This document shows, one piece after another, positions 1,294 to 16,573 of a stretch of DNA of 20,471 bases. Position 1 is the first letter of the stretch, and the number at the start of each line of letters is the position of its first letter. The notes beneath the pieces were generated by a model. The model had not been told where the DNA came from and searched no databases. It saw only the letters and a program-made list of their open reading frames with translations. The translations under genes were made by a program, and so were the position numbers. Origin of the DNA: a virus; the IMG/VR virus record IMGVR_UViG_3300042292_001389, positions 1 to 20,471 of that record. One strand, given 5' to 3'.

Positions 1294-1412
1294 CTTTAAA
1301 GATACTTTAAGATACTTCTTTAGGTATTATTTAAAATAAGTTTTAAAGGATCCTTTGAGTAAATTGTAATACCTTTCCAAAACCTTGTCAAGTAAAAAAT
1401 ATAAATATTTTT
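1294..1412 (+). other. Intergenic region with nested inverted repeats
   Basis: AT-rich gap without an ORF. It holds an 8-base inverted repeat, AGGTATTA (1322-1329) with TAATACCT (1367-1374), enclosing a 12-base perfect palindrome AAAGGATCCTTT (1345-1356). There is no T-tract after it, so it is not a typical terminator. The late-promoter octamer of the next gene is at its right end. Confidence 0.5.
1400..1407 (+). promoter_or_regulatory. T4-type late promoter octamer TATAAATA
   Basis: Exact T4 late consensus TATAAATA, followed by five T residues and then the ATG at 1413. No Shine-Dalgarno sequence lies between. With T4-like geometry the transcript would start on or within a base or two of the ATG. 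Confidence 0.75.
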
Positions 1413-1988
1413 ATGCCAAATCCTCATAATAGAAAATCTTTTCAAGAAGCCCTAGCAAAAGTTGAAATTAACGATAAACTTTTGACTGAAGCTTATGCCA
1501 TTGCAGATCAAGAAAAAATGACTGACAAGCAACTTAGAGAATTTTTTGAAATTCTCGGTGGCTTGGCTGCTGGTGCTGCAATCGCTGCTCCTGCAATTGC
1601 AACCGGTGTTGGTATGTACCGTAAAGCAAAGAAAGAAGAGCAACAACGTCAAGACACTTTAAATACAGAAGCACAGAATAGAGCCACAGAAGAAAGACGT
1701 GCTGCCGAGGATATTGAACAAAAGAGACTTGGAAGAGAACATACTACTAGTGAAAGACAAGCAGGGGAAGCCTTTACAAAGGCAGAAAAAGGAAAAGATA
1801 GAAGACAGACAGCTGCACAAAAAAGATTGGATAGAAAACAACAATCAAAACTAGCTAAAAAAGCTAGAAAATCAGAGGCTAGATCAAGGCGAGAAAATAC
1901 TGTTGTGCGTGTAGTAACAGATCCAAGAATGACAGCAGCACAGCTTGCCGCCGCTGAAGCAAAAATGCGTAGCATGGGATTGATGTAA
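1413..1988 (+). CDS. Single-membrane-segment coiled-coil protein, unknown function
   Basis: 191 residues, family not recognised. A soluble N-terminus (1-46) is followed by a Gly/Ala-rich hydrophobic stretch (about 47-68, LGGLAAGAAIAAPAIATGVG) that could cross or enter a membrane. A long, highly charged helical region rich in Lys, Arg, Glu and Gln follows (about 70-165), then a short C-terminus. The late octamer upstream suggests a virion component or a protein delivered or acting late; that is inference. Its stop overlaps the start of the next gene (TAATG at 1986-1990), so the two are probably translationally coupled and may share a role. Next to a membrane-like segment the charged coiled coil could suit a phage internal, ejected or membrane-associated protein, but nothing shows this directly. 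Confidence 0.8.
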   Translation: MPNPHNRKSFQEALAKVEINDKLLTEAYAIADQEKMTDKQLREFFEILGGLAAGAAIAAPAIATGVGMYRKAKKEEQQRQDTLNTEAQNRATEERRAAEDIEQKRLGREHTTSERQAGEAFTKAEKGKDRRQTAAQKRLDRKQQSKLAKKARKSEARSRRENTVVRVVTDPRMTAAQLAAAEAKMRSMGLM

Positions 1989-3100
1989 TGAATAATTTTC
2001 AACAACATTATTTGTCCAAATCTGTTTTAAATGGTACTGGCAGCGTTTCTTCTTTTTTAAAAGAAGGCAAGCACAAAGATTTTATGTCTGCAATATTTGC
2101 TCTTGGACAGGGGCTTGCTGCTGGCAATGAAGAAATAATGAGACAAAAGGCTGCAGAATCTGAATTGAAAATAAAAACAGGTAGACAGACCGCAGCAATA
2201 AGAGCGCTTGGGGAACGAGGGAGAACTAGAGCAGCACAAGCTAGAGCCGAGGCAGCAGATAGAATGGCTGCTGCAAGAGAATCAACTGCCGCCGCTAAGG
2301 TTGCAGCAACTGGTGCCGAAGCAGAAACTGCAAGACAGTTGGCCAGCGTAGAAGCAATTGGTGCTAGAGCAAAAGGTCAAAGAGAAGCTCAATTAAATGT
2401 TGCAAGAATTAAGGATCTAGAAGCTAAGGCAGCTTTAAATAGTGCACGTGCAGCAGCAATCTCGGATCCAGAAAATTCAGATGAAACTATTGCAATGAAT
2501 CATGCAAAAGATGTTGCAAGTAGATCTGTCCCAACTACCCCTGCAATTCCACCTGAAGGCTCCAAACGAGAAACTGAAGCACTTAATGCAGCGAAGACTC
2601 TGGAAGGTGTCCTTAGTAAGAAACTTCCAACTCCGGGAGAAATGAAATTACAAGTACAAGCAATCGCAGGCAGAGGTTTAGTTTTACCTCAACCTAAAAA
2701 AGGAACTCCTTTGTATAAAGTTGAACCAGATTCAACTTCAAATACTTCAAAGCCAGCGGCAGTAAACAATCCAAAATCAAAACCAAGTGTTAAGGCTAAA
2801 ACTAAAGCTGCAGATAAACCAGCTCCCACTCCGGCCCCTGTAAAAAAAGAAGAACCAAAAAAGGAACCAGAACCAAAGAAAGAGCCGGAACCAAAGCCAC
2901 AACCAAAAGCTAAACCAAAAAAATCAAAGGTAAAACTAGCTAGTGACACTAAAAATCGTCGTTCCGGTAGAGGTAGCAATAAAAATCGTCGTTCCGTTGG
3001 AGAAGGACTTATGCCTGAACATGCTATGATTGCTGCTCAAATCAGAAGAGAAAATTTAATGAGAAAGAGAAATGAGAATCCTCCGGACGAAAGATATTAA
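1988..3100 (+). CDS. Ala-rich coiled-coil protein with Pro/Lys/Glu-rich tail, unknown function
   Basis: 370 residues, family not recognised. After about 45 residues comes a long Ala/Arg/Glu-rich helical region (about 50-155), then a mixed region, then a low-complexity Pro/Lys/Glu segment (about 252-316) with repeated KKEPEP units. The basic C-terminus repeats KNRRS (about 322-326 and 332-336), encoded by a 16-base direct repeat. The start overlaps the previous stop by one base (TAATG). The mostly disordered, very basic C-terminus might bind nucleic acid or a partner protein; this is inference. Like the preceding gene it is AT-rich and uses AGA for Arg and AAA for Lys, matching the late genes of the window. 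A structural or ejected virion role is possible but not shown. Confidence 0.8.
   Translation: MNNFQQHYLSKSVLNGTGSVSSFLKEGKHKDFMSAIFALGQGLAAGNEEIMRQKAAESELKIKTGRQTAAIRALGERGRTRAAQARAEAADRMAAARESTAAAKVAATGAEAETARQLASVEAIGARAKGQREAQLNVARIKDLEAKAALNSARAAAISDPENSDETIAMNHAKDVASRSVPTTPAIPPEGSKRETEALNAAKTLEGVLSKKLPTPGEMKLQVQAIAGRGLVLPQPKKGTPLYKVEPDSTSNTSKPAAVNNPKSKPSVKAKTKAADKPAPTPAPVKKEEPKKEPEPKKEPEPKPQPKAKPKKSKVKLASDTKNRRSGRGSNKNRRSVGEGLMPEHAMIAAQIRRENLMRKRNENPPDERY
2951..2996 (+). repeat. 16-base direct repeat, 30-base period
   Basis: AAAAATCGTCGTTCCG occurs at 2951-2966 and again at 2981-2996. The period is 30 bases, so the reading frame is kept and the peptide KNRRS is repeated ten residues apart. 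It lies wholly within the coding region and looks like a recent in-frame duplication. Confidence 0.85.
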
Positions 3101-3104
3101 GTCA

Positions 3105-3112
3105 AATAAATA
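3105..3112 (+). promoter_or_regulatory. T4-type late promoter octamer AATAAATA
   Basis: AATAAATA lies in the short gap after the stop at 3100. Five bases separate it from the GTG at 3118, and there is no Shine-Dalgarno sequence. The same arrangement occurs before four other genes of the window. Confidence 0.6.
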
Positions 3113-3117
3113 ACTAT

Positions 3118-3363
3118 GTGAAGATCGAAGAAAAAGATTCTTTAAGAAATACAGTATTTACTGTCACTCCATCCTCCTTCTCGGAGGATTTTTCTTCTTT
3201 GTTTTCAAAAATCAAAAAATTAAAAATGCAGCCTTTTCACTCAGTGTATGTAATCATACCTAGTGATTATTATTTTAATTTTCAAAAACAACTACAAGAC
3301 ACAGCATTAAAAATTGAACAAATAGAAATTAAATATGGAATTGCAAGGATGGAGGTAAGTTAA
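3118..3363 (+). CDS. Small protein of unknown function, GTG start
   Basis: 81 residues if started at GTG 3118 (the ATG at 3116 is followed directly by a stop in its own frame). The GTG sits five bases after a late octamer, as in several other genes here. The product has a Ser/Phe-rich first half (FTVTPSSFSEDFSSLFSKIKKLK) and a second half with alternating hydrophobic residues (SVYVIIPSDYYFNFQKQLQDTALKIEQIEIKYGI). No family is recognised. The stop overlaps the next ATG (TAATG at 3361-3365), suggesting coupling. A terminator-like hairpin lies inside the frame at 3171-3189. If that is a real terminator, the true start could be the later ATG at 3226. Confidence 0.6.
   Translation: MKIEEKDSLRNTVFTVTPSSFSEDFSSLFSKIKKLKMQPFHSVYVIIPSDYYFNFQKQLQDTALKIEQIEIKYGIARMEVS
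3171..3193 (+). terminator. Terminator-like hairpin inside a coding region
   Basis: ATCCTCC (3171-3177), loop TTCTC, GGAGGAT (3183-3189): a perfect 7-bp stem followed by TTTTC. It lies 53 bases after the GTG of the 3118 gene. It may end transcripts from the upstream operon or act as an attenuator. Confidence 0.45.
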
Positions 3364-4031
3364 TGGCAGAGTATGAAATAGTTGAACATGCCTCCGACGA
3401 AGATTATCCTACAGCTGCAAGACCCGCAAGAAAAAGTGTAAGAGACGCACTTGCAAGTATTGACGCTCAGCGCACCGCAATGCAAGTGCAAAGAGATTTT
3501 GGGTTTGACGATACAACTTTTGGTTATGGAACGTATGAAGGCAAAGAGATACTTACATACGGGCTGAGAGAACAACGAGAAGAAAATCTAAAAGGTGCAC
3601 TGGAAGAAGATATGATGTATTCATCGTATTTTTCAAAACGGTATGGCAACTTTGAAGCATACTTTAATCTAGATGCAAAGTATTATTCACCAGGATTCAA
3701 TCCTTTAACAGACAAATACGTTGATGTAAAAATTGCCAAAGAAGGCAAGCTGTATATTTCAGATCACGTAAATCCAAACCAAATTATTGAAGAGCTATTG
3801 GACGGAGTTGTTTCCTTTATGGTAATAAAAGTCAATGGACAAATTACCACAATAACTGGAACACTGAAAGAAGATTTAGTCAGCGGAGAAGAACACGTCA
3901 GAAACGCAGCATTTAATTTATTGCCAGATGGAAGAGTTCTTCTTTGGAATGTAAGAAAGCAAAAGTGGAGTTCTTTTTATCCAGACAACTTACTTGAGAT
4001 GACACGTGATGATACTACTGATTTTGAATAA
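3363..4031 (+). CDS. Protein with C-terminal DUF2693/WYL_2-like small beta-barrel domain
   Basis: 222 residues. The N-terminal part is acidic then basic (about 1-45), followed by a Tyr/Glu-rich middle (50-140). Residues about 150-215 resemble the phage WYL_2/DUF2693 family: a VNGQITTITGTLKEDLV segment, then LLWNVRKQKWSSFYPDNLLEM. That family often shows this order of TxxGTL followed by a W/F-containing segment ending in SFxxDxL. The role of the family is not established; a small SH3/Sm-like barrel that binds nucleic acid or protein is the usual guess. The start overlaps the preceding stop (TAATG), and a late octamer overlaps its own stop to serve the next gene. The domain assignment is recall of a sequence pattern, not a search result. 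Confidence 0.75.
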   Translation: MAEYEIVEHASDEDYPTAARPARKSVRDALASIDAQRTAMQVQRDFGFDDTTFGYGTYEGKEILTYGLREQREENLKGALEEDMMYSSYFSKRYGNFEAYFNLDAKYYSPGFNPLTDKYVDVKIAKEGKLYISDHVNPNQIIEELLDGVVSFMVIKVNGQITTITGTLKEDLVSGEEHVRNAAFNLLPDGRVLLWNVRKQKWSSFYPDNLLEMTRDDTTDFE

Positions 4032-4034
4032 ATA
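4027..4034 (+). promoter_or_regulatory. T4-type late promoter octamer AATAAATA
   Basis: AATAAATA overlaps the stop codon of the 3363-4031 gene. Exactly five bases separate it from the ATG at 4040, and no Shine-Dalgarno sequence is present. Confidence 0.6.
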
Positions 4035-4039
4035 ATTAC

Positions 4040-4228
4040 ATGGAAGATCCAAAAGATCTAAAAACTGAGCGACACCTTTATGCTATTCTTTTAAGAGAGG
4101 CTCGCTTGGCAGTAAAAAATTACGAAGGATATCTTTTGGATAAAATTACTTCTAAAGACTTGGCAGATAAAATGTTAAGTCTTTCCCATATTCTAAAAAG
4201 AATAGAAGACTATCAAAAGGGCTCTTGA
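4040..4228 (+). CDS. Small helical protein, unknown function
   Basis: 62 residues, predicted mostly helical, with a heptad-like pattern (YAILLREARLAVKNYEGYLLDKI, then LADKMLSLSHILKRIEDYQK). No family is recognised. The ATG follows a late octamer by five bases and has no ribosome-binding site. Its stop (4226-4228) lies inside the -35 element of the next promoter. The size and helical hairpin character would suit a small adaptor or inhibitor, but nothing in the sequence shows the function. Confidence 0.65.
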   Translation: MEDPKDLKTERHLYAILLREARLAVKNYEGYLLDKITSKDLADKMLSLSHILKRIEDYQKGS

Positions 4229-4252
4229 TCACATCTAGTTTCATGGTATAAT
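4225..4252 (+). promoter_or_regulatory. sigma-70-type promoter, predicted leaderless
   Basis: TTGATC (4225-4230), a 16-base spacer, TATAAT (4247-4252), then six bases before the ATG at 4259. Standard geometry puts the first transcribed base on the A of ATG. No Shine-Dalgarno sequence is present. Confidence 0.75.
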
Positions 4253-4258
4253 ATACCC

Positions 4259-4822
4259 ATGAACATTTTTGTTTTGGATGCCGATCCCGTTGAGTCTGCT
4301 CGCATGATGTGTGACAAGCATGTTGTAAAAATGATTGTAGAGTCATGTCAGCTTTTGTCTACGGCACACCATGTCGTTGACGGCAAAGAAGTTCAGGTTG
4401 ATACTGGCAAAAGAAAATACAAGACTTCTGTCTGCAAGTTGCAAAATATTTGCAAGGCAACCATGATCAACCACCCCTGCTCTATCTGGACTAGAGCAAG
4501 CAGATCCAACTACCTTTGGCTTTGGAAGCATGCATATGCTCTCTGCAATGAATACAAGCAGCGTTATGGTAAGACGCATTCAATGGAGGCTATGTTGTTC
4601 AGAGAACTGTATAGCCCTCCAAACAATATTGCAAAGGGCAAGCTGACGGTTTTTGTTCAGGCTATGCCAGACACATACAAGAACACTGATGCTATTATCG
4701 CTTACCGCCAGTATTATTTGGGCGAGAAGGTGCGGTTTGCAAAGTGGAAGACTGGCGGCGTACCGGTGTGGTTTGTTGAGAAGAGCCCAACGCTGGGGTT
4801 GAACCAATTGGTTCCGTTTTGA
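4259..4822 (+). CDS. Conserved phage protein, unknown function (MNIFVLD...CDKHVVKM family)
   Basis: 187 residues. The N-terminus (MNIFVLDADPVESARMMCDKHVVKMIVES, then QLLSTAHHVV) and the middle (NHPCSIWTRASRSNYLWLWKHAYALCNEYKQRYGKTHSMEA) match a family I recall from many tailed phages. No function is established there. Conserved-looking His, Cys, Asp and Trp residues (C18-D19-K20-H21; H73-P74-C75) suggest a metal site or enzyme, but this is inference. The gene has its own sigma-70-type promoter with the ATG at the predicted +1, implying a leaderless early mRNA. Codon use is mixed and more GC-rich than the late genes. The last 128 bases overlap the 3' end of the minus-strand gene 4695-5555, so both strands are coding there. 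Confidence 0.85.
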   Translation: MNIFVLDADPVESARMMCDKHVVKMIVESCQLLSTAHHVVDGKEVQVDTGKRKYKTSVCKLQNICKATMINHPCSIWTRASRSNYLWLWKHAYALCNEYKQRYGKTHSMEAMLFRELYSPPNNIAKGKLTVFVQAMPDTYKNTDAIIAYRQYYLGEKVRFAKWKTGGVPVWFVEKSPTLGLNQLVPF

Positions 4823-5555
4823 CGCTATAGTTTTCAGGATATTTTTCAGTCCAATTTACTGGGCTTTGTGCATATCCATGCACCTTTAAGTAATCATCTT
4901 CCATATTCATCCCAGCACCGGAAGCTTGTTGATTTGCGCTAGCAGATTGATTAAAGGATACTTGATTTCCAATTTCCTTGTACTTGGCATATCCCGCTCT
5001 GGCGACTTTATAGTATTCAGAGTCTTTTGTTTCTGGAACACCACGCCATCTTTGTATGGTTGTAGATAAGTCTTTGTCGGATAGTGGTTTTGTTATATCA
5101 ATTCCAGCATCTTTCATTTTACCTTTTATTACAGCAAGCGCAGCTTCTTGATAAGGAACATGATATGATCTGTGTGAAAGATCACCAGCCCCGCCGTAAT
5201 CATACACTTTATCACCTTTTTTGGCTTTGGCAAATTTATCTGCCTGATTTACAAAATTTTGGGCATACTTAGCACCCGATTGATTAAAAAGTTTAGAGTG
5301 TCTTTGTAAAGCATCTCTCATTGTACTACCAGTAATTTGAACCGGACCATACGCAGTAGACATTGCTTTAGGATCTTTATGTCTTGCTTTTGTTCGAATT
5401 GCCAATTTAGGATCGTATGTAGTAGGGTCTTTTACCTGACCTCTGTGCTCAGCAGACACTAGTCCATAATAAATTGGAGTCAAAGGATCCGTAGGATCTA
5501 ATTCTTGTGATTTTACTCGTAAATCTTCAGATAAAAATGTTTTAAAACTTTTCAT
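4695..5555 (-). CDS. Putative muralytic enzyme (lytic-transglycosylase-like)
   Basis: 286 residues from ATG 5555 (MKSFKTFLSEDL...). The frame is open further to 5741, but the extra 62 codons are antisense to the 5611 gene, and an AAGGGA ribosome-binding site sits just before 5555. The N-terminal half resembles lysozyme/SLT-like folds: SAEHRG with candidate catalytic Glu36, then STAYGPVQIT (66-75), like the GxxQIT motif that follows the catalytic Glu in transglycosylases. Residues about 200-286 are Ser/Gln/Thr-rich and probably disordered. Likely a virion-associated or lysis-related cell-wall enzyme acting on peptidoglycan. Residues 245-286 are encoded antisense to the conserved gene 4259-4822. 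The family assignment is moderate: a different peptidoglycan hydrolase is possible. Confidence 0.7.
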   Translation of the reverse strand: MKSFKTFLSEDLRVKSQELDPTDPLTPIYYGLVSAEHRGQVKDPTTYDPKLAIRTKARHKDPKAMSTAYGPVQITGSTMRDALQRHSKLFNQSGAKYAQNFVNQADKFAKAKKGDKVYDYGGAGDLSHRSYHVPYQEAALAVIKGKMKDAGIDITKPLSDKDLSTTIQRWRGVPETKDSEYYKVARAGYAKYKEIGNQVSFNQSASANQQASGAGMNMEDDYLKVHGYAQSPVNWTEKYPENYSVKTEPIGSTPALGSSQQTTPVRRQSSTLQTAPSRPNNTGGKR

Positions 5556-5563
5556 GTTTCCCT

Positions 5564-5592
5564 TTGACTTAGTGTATTGTTGTTGATATAAT
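5564..5592 (+). promoter_or_regulatory. Strong sigma-70-type promoter of the early operon
   Basis: TTGACT (5564-5569), a 17-base spacer, TATAAT (5587-5592): 11 of 12 consensus bases with ideal spacing. The predicted start is near 5599, giving a leader of about 12 bases that carries AAGGA before ATG 5611. Confidence 0.9.
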
Positions 5593-5610
5593 ATGTAAAA
5601 GGACTCAACA

Positions 5611-5922
5611 ATGAACGTAAAACTATTTAGACTAAACTCAGGCGAAGAAATTATGGCTCGTTTTACTGAAAACGATGACACTTTTACTCTCAAGGATCCA
5701 GCGGTTCTCATTCCGATGGAGCGCGGCCAAATCGGCATCATGCCTTGGCTTATCTACACCAAGGCTTCAAGCGGTCTTGAGATCAAGAAGTCTTTTATTG
5801 CTTTTTCCGTTGAGCCCGTCGATGAGCTCAAGGAACAGTATGACGCAACCTTGAATAAGGGCATCGTTGCTCCTTCGAAGTCGGTGAAGTCGTCGCCGTC
5901 GTTGAAGTTGACGATGGATTGA
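5611..5922 (+). CDS. Small beta-barrel-like protein (Sm-like?), early copy of a paralogous pair
   Basis: 103 residues. The N-terminal 75 residues have a beta-rich pattern (VKLFRLNSGEEIMARF, FTLKDPAVLIPM, QIGIMPWLIYTKA, KSFIAFSVEPVDELKEQY). They align along their length with the 15983-16288 protein of this window: both have F-x-L...EE, PA-x-L, IG-x-x-x-W-L-x-YTK, then D-E/D-x-x-E-x-Y. Small phage proteins of this type with a GEEI-like turn resemble Sm/LSm-like barrels; that structural idea is inference. The C-terminal 25 residues are Ser/Lys/Val-rich. The gene is first in an operon with the deaminase-like and SPOUT genes and has a strong promoter and an SD. Codon use is GC-rich (AAG, CGT/CGC), suggesting high early expression. 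Confidence 0.85.
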   Translation: MNVKLFRLNSGEEIMARFTENDDTFTLKDPAVLIPMERGQIGIMPWLIYTKASSGLEIKKSFIAFSVEPVDELKEQYDATLNKGIVAPSKSVKSSPSLKLTMD

Positions 5923-5923
5923 T

Positions 5924-6304
5924 TTGAATATAGAAACGATAATTAAAACCTATGTTCCTGTCGCAAAGCCAATGTCCATGGCAATGCTTCGTCAAAAAAA
6001 GCATATTTCTTTGATTATTCATAAAAAAGAAATAGTGTCTATTGGGCAAAACGAGTATAAGACACATCCACAAAGTGTTAAACTGGGATACAAGTACCCT
6101 GAAATGCACTCTGAGTTGGATGCGTTCCGTAAAGTTCCTCGCAGCATGAGAGACAAAAAGCTTGTACTGCTAAACTTTAGATTTAATCGTTTTGGTAATT
6201 ATCGTAACGCCAAGCCTTGTCCCGTATGTTCTCGGTGGTGTAAGGATATTTTTCACGATATCTATTACACCACCGACGATGGAATAATTTGTTTGGAAGA
6301 TTAA
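5924..6304 (+). CDS. Zinc deaminase-fold protein (cytidine/dCMP deaminase-like), TTG start
   Basis: 126 residues. It carries the two hallmarks of the deaminase superfamily in the right order: HSE (62-64, zinc His and catalytic Glu) and PCPVC (98-102, two zinc cysteines), separated by a beta-strand (KLVLLNFRF). The N-terminal helix and strand (SLIIHKKEIVSIGQNEYKTHP) also fit. Such proteins remove an amino group from cytidine, dCMP or a base in RNA. The substrate here is unknown; the position between a barrel protein and an RNA methyltransferase with a tRNA allows either nucleotide metabolism or RNA editing. The start is taken as TTG 5924, one base after the previous stop. The first ATG (5972) would remove the first 16 residues, including part of the first helix. 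Confidence 0.8.
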   Translation: MNIETIIKTYVPVAKPMSMAMLRQKKHISLIIHKKEIVSIGQNEYKTHPQSVKLGYKYPEMHSELDAFRKVPRSMRDKKLVLLNFRFNRFGNYRNAKPCPVCSRWCKDIFHDIYYTTDDGIICLED

Positions 6305-6305
6305 T

Positions 6306-6881: not shown

Positions 6882-6890
6882 ACCCGAGGC
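6861..6890 (+). other. Two mutually exclusive hairpins before the tRNA
   Basis: Hairpin A: ACTCTG (6861-6866) with CAGAGT (6872-6877), five-base loop. Hairpin B: GCCTC (6868-6872) with GAGGC (6886-6890). They share bases, so only one can form at a time. Hairpin B is followed by TTT. They lie across the SPOUT stop codon and end seven bases before the tRNA. Confidence 0.5.
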
Positions 6891-6896
6891 TTTCAC

Positions 6897-6967
6897 TCCC
6901 CGATGGTGTAACGGTAGCACAGGAGGTTTTGGTCCTTCTAGTCCAAGTTCGAATCTTGGTTGGGGAA
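6897..6967 (+). tRNA. tRNA-Gln (anticodon UUG)
   Basis: A 71-base cloverleaf. The acceptor stem is TCCCCGA (6897-6903) with TTGGGGA (6960-6966) and discriminator A6967. The D stem is GTGT/GCAC with loop AACGGTA. The anticodon stem is GGAGG/CCTTC with loop TTTTGGT, giving TTG at positions 34-36. The variable loop is TAGT. The T stem is CCAAG/CTTGG with loop TTCGAAT. CCA is not encoded. It reads CAA (and CAG with wobble). It lies at the end of the early operon, right after a SPOUT methyltransferase, and a late promoter begins two bases after its 3' end. Confidence 0.95.
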
Positions 6968-6968
6968 T

Positions 6969-6976
6969 TATAAATA
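6969..6976 (+). promoter_or_regulatory. T4-type late promoter octamer TATAAATA
   Basis: Exact TATAAATA two bases after the tRNA discriminator base and five bases before ATG 6982. There is no Shine-Dalgarno sequence. The predicted start is on or next to the ATG. Confidence 0.75.
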
Positions 6977-6981
6977 ATGTT

Positions 6982-7341
6982 ATGCAGATCATAACTCCTT
7001 TATTGACTTTACAAAATACACTTCGAATTCATCATTGGCAGACCAAATCCTATGCTGAACACAAAGCATTAGGTAAAGCATACGAAGGACTTGATCCACT
7101 TGTTGATCAATTTGTTGAAGTTTATTTTGGCAAATATGGAAATATTAATGCCAAAGAATCTTTTAAATTAACATTAGAAAATTACAAGCCCGGTGCATGT
7201 AAAGAAATGATCGATGAATATGTCCAATATTTGGAAAATATGGGAAATTCACTCAAAGATAACGACTCAGAGCTTCTAAATATTAGGGATGAGATGCTTG
7301 CTGTATTACAGCAAACCAAGTATCTCCTTCGCCTAACATGA
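6982..7341 (+). CDS. Dps/ferritin-like small protein (DUF5856-like)
   Basis: 119 residues. The N-terminal half, LLTLQNTLRIHHWQTKSYAEHKALGKAYEGLDPLVDQFVEVYFGKYG (7-53), has the Dps-like order His-Trp...His...Glu...Asp...Glu (H18, W19, H27, E35, D42, E46). It matches a phage and protist-virus family I recall as DUF5856. In Dps these residues bind iron at the subunit interface. The rest (about 65-117) is two further helices, consistent with a short four-helix bundle. The role in phages is not known; iron handling or DNA protection are possibilities by analogy. It has a late octamer upstream, no RBS, and a 4-base ATGA overlap with the next gene. Confidence 0.75.
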   Translation: MQIITPLLTLQNTLRIHHWQTKSYAEHKALGKAYEGLDPLVDQFVEVYFGKYGNINAKESFKLTLENYKPGACKEMIDEYVQYLENMGNSLKDNDSELLNIRDEMLAVLQQTKYLLRLT

Positions 7342-7652
7342 AAATTCCAGAACTAACTTACGAAATCCGTCTGTTGGCTCGCAAAGAAGAAGATCTTTCT
7401 AAGAAAGATCTTTTTTATCAGGTAGCTAGCGTATTGGAATATACAGATGACCTTGTGAAGCAGTGCGACTTGGCAGTATCTGAAAGTCTCAAATCGGGCA
7501 CAGGACCGATTGAGATGAATGGCGAGATAAAATATCCAGTCAACCAAGAAGTCCTCGGGATGATGGACGATTTTCTTTTAGAACTTGTTCAAAAAGGATA
7601 TCTTCTCCATAATGACCGCTGGGAAGAAATAAGAAAGTTAGACGCAGCGTAA
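7338..7652 (+). CDS. Small protein, unknown function
   Basis: 104 residues, predicted mainly helical (LTYEIRLLARKEEDLSKKDLFYQVASVLEYTDDLVKQCDLAVSES, then NQEVLGMMDDFLLELVQKGYLLHNDRWEEIRKL). Family not recognised. It starts inside the previous stop (ATGA, 7338-7341), so it is probably translated by coupling from the Dps-like gene. A long, nearly perfect hairpin with a T-tract lies within its first 27 codons. Its last 15 bases overlap, tail to tail, the minus-strand gene 7638-8240. It may work with the Dps-like partner, but there is no direct sign of this. Confidence 0.75.
   Translation: MKIPELTYEIRLLARKEEDLSKKDLFYQVASVLEYTDDLVKQCDLAVSESLKSGTGPIEMNGEIKYPVNQEVLGMMDDFLLELVQKGYLLHNDRWEEIRKLDAA
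7390..7416 (+). terminator. Terminator-like hairpin inside a coding region
   Basis: AAGATCTTTCT (7390-7400), one base, then its exact complement AGAAAGATCTT (7402-7412), followed by TTTT: an 11-base inverted repeat with a T-tract. In RNA the tip would open into a small loop. It starts 52 bases after the ATG of the 7338 gene and may act as an attenuator or a partial terminator. Confidence 0.5.
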
Positions 7653-8240
7653 AAGCGCGTTGTAAACTTTTTTAGGGATTGTTTGGTGACTCAATGCCTT
7701 AAAATTGCTAGGCATGGTTTTTTGCACAAATTTGCTCTTGTAGGGATCTTTCTTAAACATCCAAAATTTTCGTTTCTCTTCCATAAAATAATGGGTATAG
7801 ATATAGCAGTTTGCTAGTCGAATGTACTTTTTTTTGTTTATCGGAAGATTGTACTTATCAATTAATTTTACTGCATATTGTTCGCATTCCCGTTCCATCT
7901 TGCGAACCCAATAAAATGCTTTTTTAATCTTTTTTGAAGAATATTCTTTTCCGTCAAACCAGTCTGCTACTGTTGTACAATGTTTATCTGCAATTTTGTA
8001 AATTTTTGATTTATGAAGCCATTGAAGAAAGTGGCAATATTCGTGCAAGAGGACATCTAAAAAATTTGGGGCTTTGATGGCAACTCGTATACAAATTACA
8101 TTATCGTCAAAGCACCCCGAGCATCGGCTCCCCTCCACATTAATGGATTTGCCTCTTCCCAGTATCAATTTTCCATTATAAATTTTGAGGTGTTTTCGAA
8201 CATGGTTTATAAACTGGCTATGCTTTGGGTCCAAGTTCAT
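7638..8240 (-). CDS. Putative zinc metallopeptidase (HExxH)
   Basis: 200 residues from ATG 8240. The core LDVLLHEYCHFLQWL (61-75) contains HEYCH (66-70), the zinc-binding and catalytic motif of many metallopeptidases. A downstream helix, MERECEQYAVKLIDKY (115-130), offers Glu118 or Glu120 as third ligand, a gluzincin-like spacing. The N-terminal segment has a Cys pair (SRCSGC, 38-43). The C-terminus is Lys/Tyr/Phe-rich. The substrate is unknown. The frame is open to 8285, but the late octamer lies within that extension, so 8240 is preferred. GGAGG abuts this ATG almost directly (one base), closer than usual. The gene converges with 7338-7652 and overlaps it by 15 bases. Confidence 0.7.
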   Translation of the reverse strand: MNLDPKHSQFINHVRKHLKIYNGKLILGRGKSINVEGSRCSGCFDDNVICIRVAIKAPNFLDVLLHEYCHFLQWLHKSKIYKIADKHCTTVADWFDGKEYSSKKIKKAFYWVRKMERECEQYAVKLIDKYNLPINKKKYIRLANCYIYTHYFMEEKRKFWMFKKDPYKSKFVQKTMPSNFKALSHQTIPKKVYNALLRCV

Positions 8241-8254
8241 ACCTCCAGTATAGA

Positions 8255-8262
8255 TATTTATC
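8255..8262 (-). promoter_or_regulatory. T4-type late promoter octamer GATAAATA
   Basis: On the minus strand GATAAATA (8262-8255) lies 14 bases before ATG 8240. The predicted leader is only a few bases long and includes GGAGG. Confidence 0.55.
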
Positions 8263-8306
8263 TTTAAAAAGTCTAAAAAAGTCAAAAATTATTTTGGCAT
8301 AAACGC

Positions 8307-8334
8307 TTGACAAAAGAAACACTTGTGGTACAAT
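8307..8334 (+). promoter_or_regulatory. sigma-70-type promoter of the HTH gene
   Basis: TTGACA (8307-8312), a 16-base spacer, TACAAT (8329-8334). The predicted start is near 8341, giving an 18-base leader with AGAAAGG as ribosome-binding site before ATG 8359. Confidence 0.85.
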
Positions 8335-8358
8335 ATACGCAGAAAGGTTTAAATTTAT

Positions 8359-8592: not shown

Positions 8593-8615
8593 ACTTTAAT
8601 GTTTAGCCTTTCAAG

Positions 8616-8645: not shown

Positions 8646-8653
8646 TCATTTGA

Positions 8654-8661
8654 GCTAAATA
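8654..8661 (+). promoter_or_regulatory. Late promoter octamer GCTAAATA
   Basis: GCTAAATA right after the terminator and 13 bases before ATG 8675. This CTAAATA variant is repeated before 15334 (plus) and 18812 (minus). It would head the virion-type operon. Confidence 0.6.
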
Positions 8662-9094: not shown

Positions 9095-12000
9095 ATGTCT
9101 TCTGATTTTTTCATTCCTCGTATTTTTAAACAATTTAATAAAACATTTATTACTCCATTCAAGGGTAGTAGATCACAATTTATTTTTCCAAATAAAGAAT
9201 TATATGTAGCTGAAAATCCAAATACATATACGACTACAAATAAAATTGAAACCTTAAGTCCAATAAAATCAAATCAAAGATTTAAAGATCAATTAAGTTT
9301 AAATCGTGTATGTAGACAGTGTTTGGAAAACAATGGTTATGATATTGACTGTATAAGAAACATTCGACCTGTTGGTCTAGACTGCAATGGAAAAAATGTT
9401 AATTTTTGTGAAAACTGCCGAGAAGAATGTATTGAATTTTGTGATCCAAATTTTGGAAACACTGATGGACAATTTAAAAATGTTACAGAAGTTTTAAGTA
9501 CTCCATTTTATTCTGATAACTTAGGCAATGCGATTGGATCTACATTTCAAAATGTAAATTTTTGGAAAGGGTATATTAACCCACCGCAGGCTGAAACTCT
9601 TAATATTTTGTTTAAAGGATTAACTGGATCTACTATAAGTGCAAATGAAATTGAAGATTTAAAACAAGGATTAAATCCATCAATTAAAACAAATTATAGA
9701 TCGTCTGTTGGCGACCATGTAAATGAATATAGTTACCAAAATACAAGTATTGGTCTTTTGACTACACTGGACGTAGGTCCCGGGCCGAATGGTGGCGGTG
9801 GTGGCGGTGGTGGTGGTGGAGGTGGTGGGCCGGGTGGTGGCGGTGGAGGAGCTCCGGATGTACAATGTGAAATGTGTTTGTTTAATGGAGGAGCTCCCGG
9901 AGCATTGCCATTATACTTGGTATACAGATATTCACAGTGTTCTTTAGTTTGGTATCCCCCAGAATATATTTTTAATTATAATCCAAGTGTCACGCAAGGA
10001 CAGGGATGGAAACGAACAGGTTTAGAGGGCAATGAAGCATATAGAGCATGTGATCTGGTGATCGGGGATGTCCGGGATCAGTCTAGCAACGGAGGAAACA
10101 ATGGTCCAGATCTAGATGCAAGTTGCATAAAAAGCTATTACAATGATCTTTGTTCTCGGGGTCTAAATTGTATTTGTAGAGAACGTGGAAACTTTCCATG
10201 CCAGTGTTTTGCGTACCCACATTTGAGCGGTGGGTTAGTAGATACTGTTAAAAAACAATTTAATGTTTCTCAAAGAGAAAACATGGGAGGCTACTTTCCT
10301 TCTTCAGATCCATTCTTGCCAAGAATGACTACAACTGAAGCAAATTGTATGACATGTTATCGTTCCTACTCTGCTGTTTCTGGTGGTAGCGATTGTGACC
10401 CAAGCTTTGAAGTAAAAAGATTAAATGCTGCAGCTTGGCCCAAAGCAAGTGGATTTGGAAAAACACCACAAACTATTGGTCCATATTGTAATACAACTAT
10501 TTCATCATCACCTAATCCAGATTTTCCTTTTTTTAATCCCAATTACCAGTTTTCTTGTTTTAGTAGAGGAGTTTCTCCTTATCTAAACAGAATTTCAAAT
10601 AGAACTGCAACAGCAGCACATGATATTATTAATTATGGAAGTGCAATTCCTTCCGAGTATGAAACTTTAGGACCAACATACAAAAGCACCATAATTCAAA
10701 CTGGTAAAAATCAAGCTGGCAACATGGAATGGTCTTCTGTAAAGTTTAAAACAGCTTACAATAAAAAAGACCTGTTATATCATAAATTAGTAGGATTGGT
10801 CGGCATTGATCACCACTTTGAATGTTGGGCTTATCACAGTAAAGTTCTTTTTTGCCCAGCACCTATACCGACCTTCAATCATGCTCGTTTACTTATTCTT
10901 CCATATGAACGTCCTTACGGTGGAATAGTAGCTCCAACTAAGTTTACATACGATCCTCGGGAAGCTTTACGTTTTCAAACCATGAAATCTTTCCCACGAA
11001 GTGTAATATATGGATCTTCTACAGTTCCAATTTTTTATGCTGACATATATGCGATGGAAGTTTTGTCGCAAAAATATGATATTAAAATTGATGGTAAGTA
11101 TTTTGATGGTGAACAGTTTTTAGAACAGTTTTACAAATATTTTTATAATATTACAGTTCGCAATGGAGAAACCAGATACAACGAGCCACTGATATTTAAA
11201 TCGGATGTTGATGATTACAATTTTGTTTCAACTTGGTTGAAACAAATGATCAAATATAATATTTTAAGCGTAAAAGACCATGCCCCAGACGTTGCAGATG
11301 AACTTTCTGAAATATTAGATAATACTGCCGTTGAAGAACTTCCATCAGGTGATATAGATGTTACATTCAGAGATTCCATGGATGATATCATGGTTGGAGG
11401 AAAAAGTGGATATTTAAATCTTATAGATTTTTTGTATACTTTGACTGGTGCGTGTGGGCCAGAAAAAACATGGGAAAACATTAAACCATATTTTAGTTCA
11501 AAAAATATAAAACAACTTATCAGACCTCAGTCACATCAAAGAGCTCCTGGACAGATGTTCTGGGCTCCACGGAGAGTTAAACTGTATCCGACACCAGATA
11601 CATCAGGGTTGACAGCGTGGGGCTGCGAAGAAGGTGGATGTAATGATTATGGATACTCACCGAACCTCATTCCACCAGATGATTACCCTTTAGAGTTTTT
11701 TAATTTGGATGGTGGAGATAGAACTTGGTTTGCTACAACTAATTCTGGTAAGCTTCAAGCTTTTGGTCACGAATCAAACGGATTCTGTGGAACAGATGCA
11801 CAGAGTGTAATTAACAGTGTAGCAAAACTTGGTTGCTATCCTGCACACTTAAGTTACGCAGATGAACTTCAAGCTGTGTCAAGTTCTACTAATTTGAGTG
11901 ATGGAACAGTACTTAAAGTTTCTTCTAAAGGTTCTAGTGCTGTAGCCTTAGTAGATTACAATCAGGGAAGAGTTTTGGGCCCTACCGAGGGAGATGCTTT

Positions 12001-15000
12001 TGGCTCAGCCCAACAGCGGAGTTTGTTTTCAAATTCTGGATACTTCCGACAAAACGGTGATTCAAATTATCAACCATTTTATGGAAAATTTAATAACCAA
12101 AGTGGATTTGTGAGCGCTTATACTATTCGTGCATGGGGAAGTAATCCCCATTGTATTTTTTATCAATCAAATAATTTTATTTCTGATTATTTTGTTCCAA
12201 GTTGGATTCCATTTTTGGGTCTTCCCGGAGCTGTTGGTAGAATACAAAATAATTATTTTATTTACAAAGATGTTGCTTCGGGAGTAAACCACAGTGCAGC
12301 CATCACATTTGATGGCGCTCTTTTCATGACACCGGATTCAAGTAATCTTGACGGTTCAAATAAACAAACTTCATATGGATACCCCACGGCATCTGCAGTA
12401 AAACAACCAACATCAGCATCATCAGAAAAATTAAATGTTGCAACAAATAGTTTAACTTTTTATAAAAACTTTCCAAAACCCGGTTATTTTACAAACGAAG
12501 AATGGGAACGGCTTTACGACGCTCAAAGAATAAACAATATACCAGGCGTCACTTACATAAATGAATTTAAGTGTAACAGAATATCAAATCAGTCATCTCC
12601 CTGCGACATTAGGTGTTATCTTTACCAAATTGGAATAGATTCTCTTATCAACGATGAAAATGATACAAAGGGTTATGTATTTGATGGAGGCAATGCTGGG
12701 TCGATTCGCGTTGATACGCCAGTGTTTACAGATGTAGCCACAGGACACTACCATACTATTGCGTTGTCTGATGATAACAATATTAAAATATGGGGTCAGT
12801 ATGTTAAAGTAAAACCCGATGGAACTGTTTTGGGTCCAACACAAACGGATGTTAGCGGCAACAGTGGAATTAACGCTATAGACGTTTTCTTGCCAACAGG
12901 TGAAATTTACGCAGATCAATGGTCATTGGGAGGTCTTACTTATGGATGCAAAGATACTTCTGTTTCAGATACAAATGCAGACCACACTCCCTACCTCGTT
13001 TACACTGAAGCCAACAAAACAGTGTATCAAAGTAAAAAAATATTTGCTATAGAAGGTGGCCCAGATTATAGTATTTTGGCAAGAAAAGATGGAACTACTG
13101 ATCGTTTAGTTATTTGGGGTCATGCTGAAATGGTCGAATCTGTTTCCGGCATTCCAATAAATGGCTTGACAGGATCTTATGGAAAAAATTACAGCAATAT
13201 TAAAAAAATTGTTGCTGGGCCAAATGCTGTTACAGTATTGTATAAAAAAGAAAATGCATACACTAACAGCACAGAAATATTTGTTAGAAAAGGACGTAAA
13301 ACAAATAGTCTGTATGATTTTGGTTTAACTGGAGGGCTGGAAGGAAAATATTACACGGACATAACTTCCACTTATGGAAATGCAGCTGGAATATACACAG
13401 CTGGATTAGTTGCACAAACGTGGAATGGAGATTCCTTTTCACCGGGTCATGCAGTTTGGCAGTTTAAAGATTACAATTCATTGCCGCAGTATTTTAGATC
13501 ACAGGCATTTTTTAGAGCTGTTCCAGGTCGTTGGGAAATTACAAAATGGTTATTTGGAAGACCTTGCCATTTGTTGGGCACGGATTTTATTGATAATCAA
13601 GTAGCAAAGCCTGACACCTGTAGTGTGTACTACAGAAAAGGTGATATAAATCGCTCTTATACAGGAATACCTCAGTATTATTGGATGAGAGGTTCGTGGA
13701 AAAGAAATCAACAAGCTACCCCACTACACTCATATGATCCTGCTAAGGGAGGTGGTTGTGGGTTAATAAGAAATATAGACAATGAAGACGGATTAAAGCC
13801 TGAAGATTTTGGTATAGGAACACAAGCGGGGACATTGCAAGATACTAATGTAGCATTAAATAGAAGTTTTGGTGGATGTTATGCAAACGGAGATATATGT
13901 TGGATTGGCGATGGAAGTCCTTCGCCCTATGCGTATCAATATGAAAATTTTACAAATAATGTCGTGTCATGTCAATGTTTAGATGATGTATGTGGATGTC
14001 CTCCATATACAAGACAACAATATAGATTAAGTTGCGATGCAGATGCCCAATACATTGGAACAAGATGTTTTGGTTATATAACCGGGAGAATCGGGTTTAA
14101 TTCAAATAAAGATTACTTTATACAATCAGCCAAGGCTTTTGGTAAATTAAACGGTAGAGGAAATTTTCAATTAAATGTAGGAGAATGCTGTGGTGTTGTT
14201 AAAACTAATATTACAGGATTTTTATACGCTAGAAGAGAATATTACTATGCTTATAACACCACTACTCAAAACTATGGAGTAAAAGATGCACCGCTACCAT
14301 ACCGTCCAGCCTTCGTTGGATACGATAGACCAACAGAGGGTGAAGTTTATGGATTGACATCTAGTAGACTGTTTAATGAAATAATGGTCCCGAAGGATGC
14401 TTTGATAAATGCATATACGGTTGAAAATGTTTTAAAATATCCAAAAGTTTATGTCGGTGGGCCCAATTTAAAACCGCTAGAGGACGACTATAACCAATCA
14501 AAACAAAGAAATTTGAGTTGCCCTTCAACAAATCTATGTGCTGGAGAGCCTTGTGACGATCCGTGTGCAACACAAAGTGGGTGTATGACACGCAGTCCGT
14601 ATGATTTAATAGGTCCCGGCGGCTGGGTCCATGCATATGGACAGAAACAAAATTGTAATTATGGTGATCCAGTCATAACAAATGGCACGTTTAATGAAAC
14701 TGCAACGGCAAATTATTATGAAAAAGATATGTATTTGTCTATTGTTGCTACCGATGATTGGCTAAAAGGAATGGCATCGTTTAAAGATTATTCTGGGCGA
14801 ATTCCTCCGGGGTTGAGTGCATCTGAGTGTTGGTGTGGACCAACCAGTCCAGCAAATCCAACTGGCGTTGGTAATTGCCCCAATTCATCTTTTGGGTGCC
14901 CAAACGGAGAACGTGTATGTGAAAATTGTAGATGGTGTTGCGCTTTGCCATCTGGAATGTTCTACGAATTGGCTGGAAATACAGGAATAGATTCCCCGGG

Positions 15001-15301
15001 ACTTTACTATCCAGGAAACGAACCTTTGCCGGGTCCACCAGAAGATAATATTTCAGAAATTCCACCATATCTTTGGTATAGAGTTTACGAAGAAATTCCA
15101 TCAACATATAATCTGGAATGTCCCGGTTTAACTTATGGATTTACTGGAGCTCCAATTGCATTCCAAGGTTTTAGCGATGATGCGGGAACACAAGTTGGAG
15201 ATTTTAGAGCAAGGTGCTTCGATGACCCGAGTGATACTATACCAATTCAAATCATTGGAGAAACATCAGATGTTCGTTGCGATTTATATTACGATAACTA
15301 A
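9095..15301 (+). CDS. Giant cysteine-rich virion-type protein with RCC1-like repeats (2068 residues)
   Basis: 2068 residues with about 66 cysteines; no close family recognised. The N-terminal region (1-110) has CxxC clusters (CRQC, CENCREEC). Residues 233-252 are an almost pure glycine linker. Residues 255-860 are mixed, Cys/Tyr/Pro-containing. Residues about 865-1420 contain units resembling RCC1 propeller blades, such as FTDVATGHYHTIALSDDNNIKIWGQ (about 1210-1234), VASGVNHSAAITFDGALFM, EGGPDYSILARKDGTTDRLVIWGH and KIVAGPNAVTVLYKK. The C-terminal 500 residues again have Cys clusters (CQCLDDVCGC, NLCAGEPCDDPC, CENCRWCC). RCC1-like propellers generally bind partner proteins or sugars. Size, late context and lack of enzyme motifs suggest a long fibre, tail or surface protein for host contact; this is inference. 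AT-rich codons match the late class. Confidence 0.85.
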   Translation: MSSDFFIPRIFKQFNKTFITPFKGSRSQFIFPNKELYVAENPNTYTTTNKIETLSPIKSNQRFKDQLSLNRVCRQCLENNGYDIDCIRNIRPVGLDCNGKNVNFCENCREECIEFCDPNFGNTDGQFKNVTEVLSTPFYSDNLGNAIGSTFQNVNFWKGYINPPQAETLNILFKGLTGSTISANEIEDLKQGLNPSIKTNYRSSVGDHVNEYSYQNTSIGLLTTLDVGPGPNGGGGGGGGGGGGGPGGGGGGAPDVQCEMCLFNGGAPGALPLYLVYRYSQCSLVWYPPEYIFNYNPSVTQGQGWKRTGLEGNEAYRACDLVIGDVRDQSSNGGNNGPDLDASCIKSYYNDLCSRGLNCICRERGNFPCQCFAYPHLSGGLVDTVKKQFNVSQRENMGGYFPSSDPFLPRMTTTEANCMTCYRSYSAVSGGSDCDPSFEVKRLNAAAWPKASGFGKTPQTIGPYCNTTISSSPNPDFPFFNPNYQFSCFSRGVSPYLNRISNRTATAAHDIINYGSAIPSEYETLGPTYKSTIIQTGKNQAGNMEWSSVKFKTAYNKKDLLYHKLVGLVGIDHHFECWAYHSKVLFCPAPIPTFNHARLLILPYERPYGGIVAPTKFTYDPREALRFQTMKSFPRSVIYGSSTVPIFYADIYAMEVLSQKYDIKIDGKYFDGEQFLEQFYKYFYNITVRNGETRYNEPLIFKSDVDDYNFVSTWLKQMIKYNILSVKDHAPDVADELSEILDNTAVEELPSGDIDVTFRDSMDDIMVGGKSGYLNLIDFLYTLTGACGPEKTWENIKPYFSSKNIKQLIRPQSHQRAPGQMFWAPRRVKLYPTPDTSGLTAWGCEEGGCNDYGYSPNLIPPDDYPLEFFNLDGGDRTWFATTNSGKLQAFGHESNGFCGTDAQSVINSVAKLGCYPAHLSYADELQAVSSSTNLSDGTVLKVSSKGSSAVALVDYNQGRVLGPTEGDAFGSAQQRSLFSNSGYFRQNGDSNYQPFYGKFNNQSGFVSAYTIRAWGSNPHCIFYQSNNFISDYFVPSWIPFLGLPGAVGRIQNNYFIYKDVASGVNHSAAITFDGALFMTPDSSNLDGSNKQTSYGYPTASAVKQPTSASSEKLNVATNSLTFYKNFPKPGYFTNEEWERLYDAQRINNIPGVTYINEFKCNRISNQSSPCDIRCYLYQIGIDSLINDENDTKGYVFDGGNAGSIRVDTPVFTDVATGHYHTIALSDDNNIKIWGQYVKVKPDGTVLGPTQTDVSGNSGINAIDVFLPTGEIYADQWSLGGLTYGCKDTSVSDTNADHTPYLVYTEANKTVYQSKKIFAIEGGPDYSILARKDGTTDRLVIWGHAEMVESVSGIPINGLTGSYGKNYSNIKKIVAGPNAVTVLYKKENAYTNSTEIFVRKGRKTNSLYDFGLTGGLEGKYYTDITSTYGNAAGIYTAGLVAQTWNGDSFSPGHAVWQFKDYNSLPQYFRSQAFFRAVPGRWEITKWLFGRPCHLLGTDFIDNQVAKPDTCSVYYRKGDINRSYTGIPQYYWMRGSWKRNQQATPLHSYDPAKGGGCGLIRNIDNEDGLKPEDFGIGTQAGTLQDTNVALNRSFGGCYANGDICWIGDGSPSPYAYQYENFTNNVVSCQCLDDVCGCPPYTRQQYRLSCDADAQYIGTRCFGYITGRIGFNSNKDYFIQSAKAFGKLNGRGNFQLNVGECCGVVKTNITGFLYARREYYYAYNTTTQNYGVKDAPLPYRPAFVGYDRPTEGEVYGLTSSRLFNEIMVPKDALINAYTVENVLKYPKVYVGGPNLKPLEDDYNQSKQRNLSCPSTNLCAGEPCDDPCATQSGCMTRSPYDLIGPGGWVHAYGQKQNCNYGDPVITNGTFNETATANYYEKDMYLSIVATDDWLKGMASFKDYSGRIPPGLSASECWCGPTSPANPTGVGNCPNSSFGCPNGERVCENCRWCCALPSGMFYELAGNTGIDSPGLYYPGNEPLPGPPEDNISEIPPYLWYRVYEEIPSTYNLECPGLTYGFTGAPIAFQGFSDDAGTQVGDFRARCFDDPSDTIPIQIIGETSDVRCDLYYDN
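9791..9850 (+). repeat. GGN codon tract encoding a poly-glycine linker
   Basis: Twenty codons: thirteen Gly, one Pro, six Gly, mostly GGT and GGC. They join the N-terminal domain of the giant protein to the rest. The tract is slippage-prone, and its length in multiples of three may vary between relatives. Confidence 0.9.
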
Positions 15302-15306
15302 AGTCA

Positions 15307-15314
15307 TCTAAATA
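15307..15314 (+). promoter_or_regulatory. Late promoter octamer TCTAAATA
   Basis: TCTAAATA just after the stop of the giant gene. The predicted start leaves a leader carrying GAAAGGTG (15319-15326), eight bases before GTG 15334. The identical octamer precedes the 18812 minus gene. Confidence 0.65.
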
Positions 15315-15333
15315 ACATGAAAGGTGCGAATTA

Positions 15334-15975
15334 GTGTTTAATAATAATACATTTGTTGGGAATCATTCTTTGACTTCTAATGGGTATACTACCTTCTCCG
15401 TACCCAATGAACTAAATTTTAATTTAGATTTTACTAATCCAGAATTAGTAACGGCAGCAAAAGAAAGTAAAAAACATTTATTTTATTACCGACCTTTTGC
15501 AATAAAATTAGAATGGAATCGAACATTAAAGATAGAAATTAAAACATATTCCCTGCGTATAGGTGATATGATTGATTTCTTTACAAGAAAAACTGGATTA
15601 AAATCTTTAATTATCAAATTAACAAACGGAAACTGCGGTTGTGAAGCAAGAAGACAAAAATTTAATAAATGGTTTAGCATTCCGATTTTTAAAATTTGGT
15701 TTGACGATCATGATTACGAGGATGCAGTGGTCATTCGCACTCGCTTCTACCGCAAACAACGTCTACAAGAACAAAAATTAGAAGAAGAGCGTCTTGAAAA
15801 TCTTTATGATAATGTAAAAAGAAACATTATCGAACAAGCACACAACAAAGAACAAGATGAGCTTGGACATTCTAATAATAATTATTCACAAACAAATCAG
15901 ACGGCTTCACCTAGACCTGCAAGCAATGGCTGTGGGTGTGGCTCTAAAATGAAAAAGACTGTTAACTATATTTGA
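15334..15975 (+). CDS. Protein with CGCxxRRxxxN motif, probable accessory of the giant protein
   Basis: 213 residues, GTG start with a good SD. The middle, SLRIGDMIDFFTRKTGLKSLIIKLTNGNCGCEARRQKFNKWF, matches a phage motif in which a TGxK segment precedes a Cys-Gly-Cys/Arg/Asn turn. I recall it from many phages without a known function. Then comes a charged helix (RFYRKQRLQEQKLEEERLENLYDNVKRNIIEQAHNKEQ, about 137-175) and a polar tail ending CGCGSKMKKTVNYI. The two CGC clusters link it in style to the neighbouring cysteine-rich proteins. It is the first gene of a short late unit with the paralogous barrel protein after it (seven bases between stop and ATG). It could help assemble or attach the giant protein; this is inference. 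Confidence 0.75.
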   Translation: MFNNNTFVGNHSLTSNGYTTFSVPNELNFNLDFTNPELVTAAKESKKHLFYYRPFAIKLEWNRTLKIEIKTYSLRIGDMIDFFTRKTGLKSLIIKLTNGNCGCEARRQKFNKWFSIPIFKIWFDDHDYEDAVVIRTRFYRKQRLQEQKLEEERLENLYDNVKRNIIEQAHNKEQDELGHSNNNYSQTNQTASPRPASNGCGCGSKMKKTVNYI

Positions 15976-15982
15976 GGAAACT

Positions 15983-16288
15983 ATGGAACTTTTATATTTT
16001 AAACTTTATACTAATGAAGAAGTTATCGCCCCCGCTCGCCGTGTAGACAATGGATGGATTATCAATAATCCAGCAACATTAGTTCACATGAAAGATTACA
16101 AAATTGGTCTTGCAACATGGCTACCGTACACAAAGGTGGATACTGGATCGTTGCTTCCATTTTCTGCCGTAATGCTTGCACTGGATGTTGCGGATGACAT
16201 GGCTGAATATTACACAAAATGGATGAACCCGGACATGTCTACTGTAATTAAAGTAGACGAAAATGGAGAAGTCCAGACAAATAAATAA
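15983..16288 (+). CDS. Small beta-barrel-like protein (Sm-like?), late copy of a paralogous pair
   Basis: 101 residues, paralogous to the 5611-5922 protein. Shared positions include the F-x-L strand, the EE turn (TNEEVIAPA against SGEEIMARF), the NPATLVHM/DPAVLIPM strand, IGLATWLPYTK against IGIMPWLIYTK, and the D-x-x-E-x-Y helix start. A GAGGAAA ribosome-binding site overlaps the previous stop and sits two bases before the ATG. It uses AT-rich late-type codons, whereas its paralogue is GC-rich and early. The Sm-like fold is inference from the strand pattern. The pair may be an early and a late version of the same RNA- or protein-binding module. The stop overlaps the late octamer of the next gene. 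Confidence 0.8.
   Translation: MELLYFKLYTNEEVIAPARRVDNGWIINNPATLVHMKDYKIGLATWLPYTKVDTGSLLPFSAVMLALDVADDMAEYYTKWMNPDMSTVIKVDENGEVQTNK
16280..16287 (+). promoter_or_regulatory. T4-type late promoter octamer AATAAATA
   Basis: AATAAATA overlaps the end of the 15983 gene. Only four bases separate it from GTG 16292, and there is no Shine-Dalgarno sequence. Confidence 0.6.
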
Positions 16289-16291
16289 TTT

Positions 16292-16573
16292 GTGTTTAAA
16301 GGAACTTACAAAAAGAAACTTGGAGATGGGTCGTACAATGTGTATAGCCCAACTGATACTGTTTTGTTTCATGGAAAAATTTATGAAACAAAGCAATCTA
16401 CGTATTTGTCTCCAATAGAAAAAGCATCAGCTTGGGAATACAGAGGATTGTCTGAGATTTATATTTCAGACAATCCTCCCCTTGATCCTAAAGTTGGCCA
16501 AATTTGGTCAACAAATGGTAAGTTTTATACTTATTTCTATGATGGAAATAATTATACTTGGGTTGAACTTTAA
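16292..16573 (+). CDS. Small putative fibre-tip or carbohydrate-binding protein
   Basis: 93 residues from GTG 16292. The pattern NVYSPTDTVLFHGKIYETKQSTYLSPIEKASAWEYRG resembles the chitin-binding CBM5/12 type (y-x-x-GDxVxYxGkxYxA...P...W). PLDPKVGQIWSTNGKFYTYFYDGNNYTWVEL resembles a C-terminal module common in phage tail-fibre proteins that ends in a short Trp-containing strand. A virion surface or glycan-binding role is likely; the exact fold is inference. It lies four bases after a late octamer with no RBS. Its stop shares the palindrome TTAA (16570-16573) with the stop of the opposite-strand gene, so the two converge with a four-base overlap. Confidence 0.7.
   Translation: MFKGTYKKKLGDGSYNVYSPTDTVLFHGKIYETKQSTYLSPIEKASAWEYRGLSEIYISDNPPLDPKVGQIWSTNGKFYTYFYDGNNYTWVEL

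Follow-up and report, generated by a model that had tools for sequence, protein, structure and literature searches.

Late transcription in phage T4 is a textbook system whose mRNAs are leadered and carry a Shine-Dalgarno (SD) sequence. A review of T4 late transcription places the promoter octamer at -13 to -6, a helical turn ahead of the point where transcription begins (PMC2988020). Late promoters of the form NATAAATA are the octamer consensus of the cyanomyoviruses S-PM2 and Syn9 (PMC2984593), CTAAATA is a recognised late-promoter variant, (a/g)CTAAATA, in Aeromonas phage Aeh1 (PMC2988020), and T4-like late octamers have already been reported in the marine methylophage Melnitz; octamer-to-start spacing is not discussed in the available part of that article (PMC9004378). 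For leaderless bacterial genes, the accepted signature is a TATAAT about 12 nt before the start (PMC3160421).

The DNA analysed here (the window, meaning this whole stretch) is a genome fragment of 20,471 bp from a T4-like phage that is uncultured. It encodes gp32 (phrog_224, 3e-109) and the late-transcription co-activator gp33 (18886-19122, + strand; PF16805, 7.8e-18; phrog_254). No gp55 was found within this 20-kb fragment; the late sigma factor is encoded by a relative, G001 (phrog_234, 6.8e-50). Octamers close to TATAAATA lie 5' of genes in the window, as T4-type late promoters do, and we interpret them as such promoters because the window encodes gp33 and its relative encodes gp55. The octamer, its A(-13) variant, gp33 (window) and gp55 (relative) are thus common to the window's phage group and to T4 (gp55/gp33/gp45, TATAAATA). 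They differ in spacing, d, the number of nucleotides between the end of the octamer and the start codon: in T4, d is mostly 12-35 (mode 27-28), with an SD, and no octamer has d=4-6. The octamer consensus is also the same as that of cyanomyovirus late promoters, but Syn9, P-SSM2, DSL-LC03 and AG-345-L05 are leadered. As in Aeh1, the CTAAATA sites described below have C at -12; here, A- and C-type octamers coexist.

Five octamers on the + strand of the window lie immediately before start codons. TATAAATA at 1400-1407 is 5 nt from ATG 1413, the start of a gene of unassigned function (1413-1988; from the list of open reading frames, with no Pfam match), and at 6969-6976, directly 3' of a tRNA-Gln gene (6897-6967), it is 5 nt from ATG 6982, the start of a 119-aa DUF5856/phrog_858 gene (6982-7341). 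AATAAATA is 5 nt from GTG 3118 (octamer 3105-3112; 81-aa gene, 3118-3363), 5 nt from ATG 4040 (octamer 4027-4034; 62-aa gene, 4040-4228) and 4 nt from GTG 16292 (octamer 16280-16287; 93-aa gene, 16292-16573); the octamers before 4040 and 16292 overlap the stop codon of the preceding gene. These positions confirm the sequence-only reading, which had placed five NATAAATA octamers at 5, 5, 5, 5 and 4 nt before these starts and had noted that each start lacks an SD. We likewise saw no SD between octamer and start codon at any of the five, although this absence is partly built in because the octamer occupies the SD zone. A G-run near 6982 sits 5' of the octamer, inside the 3' end of the tRNA-Gln gene, and is therefore outside any transcript starting at +1. 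When we shuffled the 25 nt upstream of each of 24 gene starts, 20,000 trials averaged 0.044 such cases and never gave more than 2, compared with the 5 observed. ATAAATA and TTAAATA are not over-represented per se in the window (18 found, 17.1 expected), and five of the seven ATAAATA on its + strand are the close-spaced octamers. The signal is the position of the octamer and not its abundance.

With the octamer at -13 to -6, the fifth base beyond it is -1, and at d=5 the first base of the start codon would therefore be +1; a -10 element at a distance that places +1 on the start codon is what is expected of a leaderless gene. We propose that host RNA polymerase with the phage sigma factor gp55 and gp33 would read the octamers as late promoters, and that many octamers in the clade are placed so that the fixed +1 would coincide with the start codon's first base or be a few bases off. 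Late transcripts from these sites would open with AUG or GUG and have neither 5' leader nor SD; host ribosomes would translate them by leaderless initiation. Other late genes (portal, scaffold and the gene starting at 18812) would have the same type of promoter farther 5', with a leader and often an SD, and the class of a gene would be set by the distance from promoter to start codon and not by the type of octamer. We put the probability of this explanation as a whole at roughly 85%. The +1 is carried over from T4, and we infer both that transcription starts there and that mRNAs with a 5'-terminal AUG or GUG are translated. At 16292 (d=4), +1 would fall one base inside the GTG unless initiation slips by 1 nt, and we predict an mRNA that is leaderless or has a leader within 1 nt of that; we predict leaderless mRNAs for the other four genes. 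The octamers of 4040 and 16292 share bases with the stop codon ahead of them, and these two genes could also be translated from read-through RNA.

We next compared the starts with those of relatives, fetched via gp32 as whole contigs (G001-G007); the genomes of the clade are fragments. Homologous proteins back the starts at 3118, 4040, 6982 and 16292, because their alignments begin at the N-terminus, for genes 3118 (in three relatives, 33-44% identity) and 16292 at residue 1. Giving the window first, spacing is d=5, 5, 5 and 5 for gene 1413 and its orthologues in G001, G002 and G003; d=5, 5, 5 and 4 for gene 3118; d=5, 6, 6 and 5 for gene 4040; d=5, 6, 6 and 8 for gene 6982; and d=4, 5 and 5 for gene 16292, followed by 6, 7 and 8 in the most diverged relatives. 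Orthologous starts thus hold d=4-8 at 33-78% protein identity, with the upstream DNA largely diverged outside the octamer. A non-redundant set from the clade contains 14 cases of [AC]TAAATA-N5-ATG, compared with 1.24 for each of the other offsets (p=7.6e-11). Two further observations concern these orthologues. TGTCAAG is conserved about 10 nt 5' of the gene 1413 octamer in four diverged phages (about 1385-1391 in the window; G001, G002 and G003), and the gene 6982 orthologue at G002 11540 has ATA in place of ATG, 6 nt after the octamer, where a non-standard start is possible.

The same arrangement recurs in HTVC008M, a cultured phage of Pelagibacter. Among its 64 [AC]TAAATA sequences, 12 lie exactly 5 nt before independently annotated starts, one lies at d=6 and none at d=2-4; the expectation at d=5 is 0.04 with uniform placement and 0.27 after shuffling (maximum 3 in 2,000). 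The d=5 genes include gp2, gp3, gp4, a gp25-like baseplate wedge gene, the tail tube cap gene and the tape measure gene. An SD match (SD-like pairing, dG <= -4.5) was found for 8% of the d=4-6 genes of HTVC008M; the share is 77% for its octamer-leadered genes and 57% for all remaining genes, on annotated starts throughout. The figure for leaderless genes of the window's clade is 4%, but SD scores in unannotated contigs hinge on the starts chosen, and that choice favours an SD for the other genes. Octamers at d=5 also number six in the pelagiphage Mosig and seven in the viral contig G008 (p=8e-7). No d=5 peak was present in T4, Syn9, P-SSM2, DSL-LC03, AG-345-L05 or phiM12; Melnitz is mostly leadered (1 leaderless, 11 leadered), and Caulobacter phage Cr30, in which 50 kb hold 2 octamers, has too few to be informative. 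A tree of gp32 alone does not bring the leaderless phages together: the pelagiphages sit near Syn9, apart from both the window's clade and G008/G011. This scatter suggests repeated gain or loss, although one gene with several weak forks is not proof. The earlier proposal that these late mRNAs are leaderless is thus well supported, as a prediction from sequence, by the exact register, its conservation and its recurrence in a cultured phage.

The sigma-70 promoters of the clade, including those of gp33 and gp55, are also predicted to be leaderless (TATAAT N6 ATG). The last base of TATAAT is -7 by the usual numbering. In eight families of the clade, a gap of exactly 6 nt separates TATAAT from ATG (p=1.9e-5). 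Within the window it occurs at 4247-4252 (+ strand; TTGATC 16 bp upstream), 6 nt before ATG 4259 of a pyrimidine-dimer glycosylase-like gene (Pfam); at 18874-18879 (+ strand; -35-like TTGATA at 18852-18857), 6 nt before ATG 18886 of gp33; and at 1044-1049 (- strand), 6 nt before ATG 1037 of a cytosine methyltransferase gene. The gp55 gene of G001 (L157:1653; G001 60652) is preceded by TTGACA, 17 bp, TATAAT, N6 and ATG. The mRNAs of gp33 and, in G001, of gp55 are thus themselves predicted to be leaderless. This register agrees with that of the octamer, with a second promoter type converging on the same point. The TATAAT signature is like that of leaderless (TA-led) genes in Actinobacteria and Deinococcus; here, a phage late sigma factor and its octamer are involved too. 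The gp32 gene, just downstream of gp33, has a sigma-70 promoter of TTGACA, 16 bp and TAGAAT (19120-19147) and, in contrast to the predicted leaderless gp33, a leader roughly 60 nt long that contains a GC-rich inverted repeat (CCGGG..CCCGG). In HTVC008M, the leaderless sigma-70 signature was not seen (2 at d=6, p=0.28), and leaderlessness there would therefore be a late-phase trait.

CTAAATA octamer cores also lie farther from start codons in the window, 13-19 nt upstream as previously noted. They are at 8655-8661 (+ strand; d=13 to ATG 8675), at 15308-15314 (+ strand; d=19 to GTG 15334, with an AAGG-like SD) and at 18832-18838 (- strand; d=19 to ATG 18812, with the SD GGAG), the last spacing being kept in 14 relatives. 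The farther octamers of the clade precede genes that are plainly late and structural, namely those for the portal (d=15) and the scaffold (d=21), gp13 (d=8) and gp4 (d=9). Late genes of the clade fall into three groups: leaderless, short-leader (2-6 nt, d=7-11) and leadered. CTAAATA 7-11 nt before gp4, gp13, baseplate wedge and other structural genes was seen at G001 26694, 31730 and 34306 and in their orthologues; leaders of 2-6 nt, as in these, are too short for an SD. Two other features of this part of the window were observed: a 2068-aa late protein with an RCC1-like repeat region (9095-15301; PF13540), found in close relatives only, and a five-codon mini-ORF, MKGAN (15317-15334), whose stop codon overlaps the GTG start at 15334 (TAGTG).

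The sequence-only reading had suggested two late initiation classes, A-type octamers being leaderless and CTAAATA leadered. As a description, leaderless genes and leadered genes with an SD do stand apart; that octamer type decides between them does not hold. It would do so if there were two promoter sub-types, perhaps for different sigma forms, and in the close clade there is such a tendency (19/34 A-type against 6/27 C-type octamers at d=4-6, p=0.01). However, orthologues of gene 1413 switch between ATAAATA and CTAAATA (the latter in G001, G002 and G003) at a constant d=5, which largely refutes this idea, and some orthologues of gene 16292 also have CTAAATA. Moreover, octamer type does not predict spacing in HTVC008M, where 9/17 A-type and 4/7 C-type octamers are leaderless (p=1), and A-type octamers precede SD-led genes, both long-leader genes in HTVC008M and, in the window, the gene at 8240 (ATAAATA at 8255-8261, - strand; d=14 to ATG 8240, with the SD GGAGG). 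We therefore consider distinct sub-types very improbable. At this last gene (7638-8240, - strand), a single nucleotide separates GGAGG from ATG 8240; a TTG lying 6 nt beyond would be at normal SD spacing and may be the true start.

It had also been suggested that the AU-rich octamer functions at the RNA level, where the ribosome or S1 would bind it in read-through transcripts, and not, or not only, as a promoter. The sites are indeed AU-rich and SD-less and lie in short gaps between co-oriented genes, two of them overlapping the upstream stop codon. By contrast, the equally AU-rich TTAAATA is never at d=4-6 (0/18 in the non-redundant clade set), and pooled counts at d=4-6 are 10 for control 7-mers against 62 for octamers (AATAAAT was dropped as a control because it overlaps AATAAATA). 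Spacing in HTVC008M is held to a single base, although several spacings ought to be acceptable to an element that acts by binding in RNA; octamers of this kind also lie 12-36 nt before SD-led genes; the element is the T4 late promoter, with gp33 and gp55 present; and the unrelated TATAAT shows a matching register at d=6. These results disfavour ribosome or S1 binding, which we regard as very unlikely to be what the octamer does. Another possibility is that these genes are translated by stop-start coupling, or by re-initiation after the gene ahead, and that the octamer spacing reflects mere compact packing: gene 4040 starts 8 nt and gene 16292 starts 3 nt beyond the preceding stop codon, and coupling could contribute at both. 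It could not at 1413 or 6982, where no coding gene ends close upstream (6982 follows a tRNA gene); the HTVC008M sites are in gaps and on both strands, and the conserved spacing is to the octamer and not to the stop codon. As a general account, coupling is highly improbable, and promoters fused to start codons remain our preferred reading.

GTG starts are enriched among the leaderless genes of the window's clade (8/25, compared with 2/54 others, p=0.001); none of the 30 leaderless starts in HTVC008M, Mosig and G008 is GTG. GUG on leaderless mRNAs works in some actinobacteria and poorly in Caulobacter (PMC9031893), and because its efficiency varies by bacterium, host ribosomes may differ among the leaderless phages. 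A search for an actinobacterial host via WhiB found none, and a search for a host via gp32 in genome contigs found no relative. Both pelagiphages with leaderless late promoters encode bS21 (HTVC008M 91228; Mosig 9932-10141). It was not found in the window's clade as far as covered, and we rejected bS21 as a common cause since it is present only in HTVC008M and Mosig.

A literature search, which was not exhaustive, found no earlier report of T4-type late promoters fused to start codons. Speculatively, and on balance improbably, some T4-like phages might run a late leaderless programme, in which the gp55 polymerase makes mRNAs with a 5'-terminal AUG (or GUG) and initiation shifts away from SD-led starts, possibly on altered ribosomes. 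A T4-type promoter appears here to be fused to the start codon, not only in an aquatic clade but also among phages that infect Pelagibacter, which is among the most abundant bacteria. For the cultured phage HTVC008M, late 5' ends are accordingly predicted on the A of the ATG codons at 6280, 7562, 11972, 18943, 19456, 31132, 49760, 75559, 75830 and 142360 (+ strand) and at 18916 and 16007 (- strand). The arrangement would tie promoter evolution to the mechanism of translation, and would help to call start codons and to predict late genes in T4-like phages from the environment.
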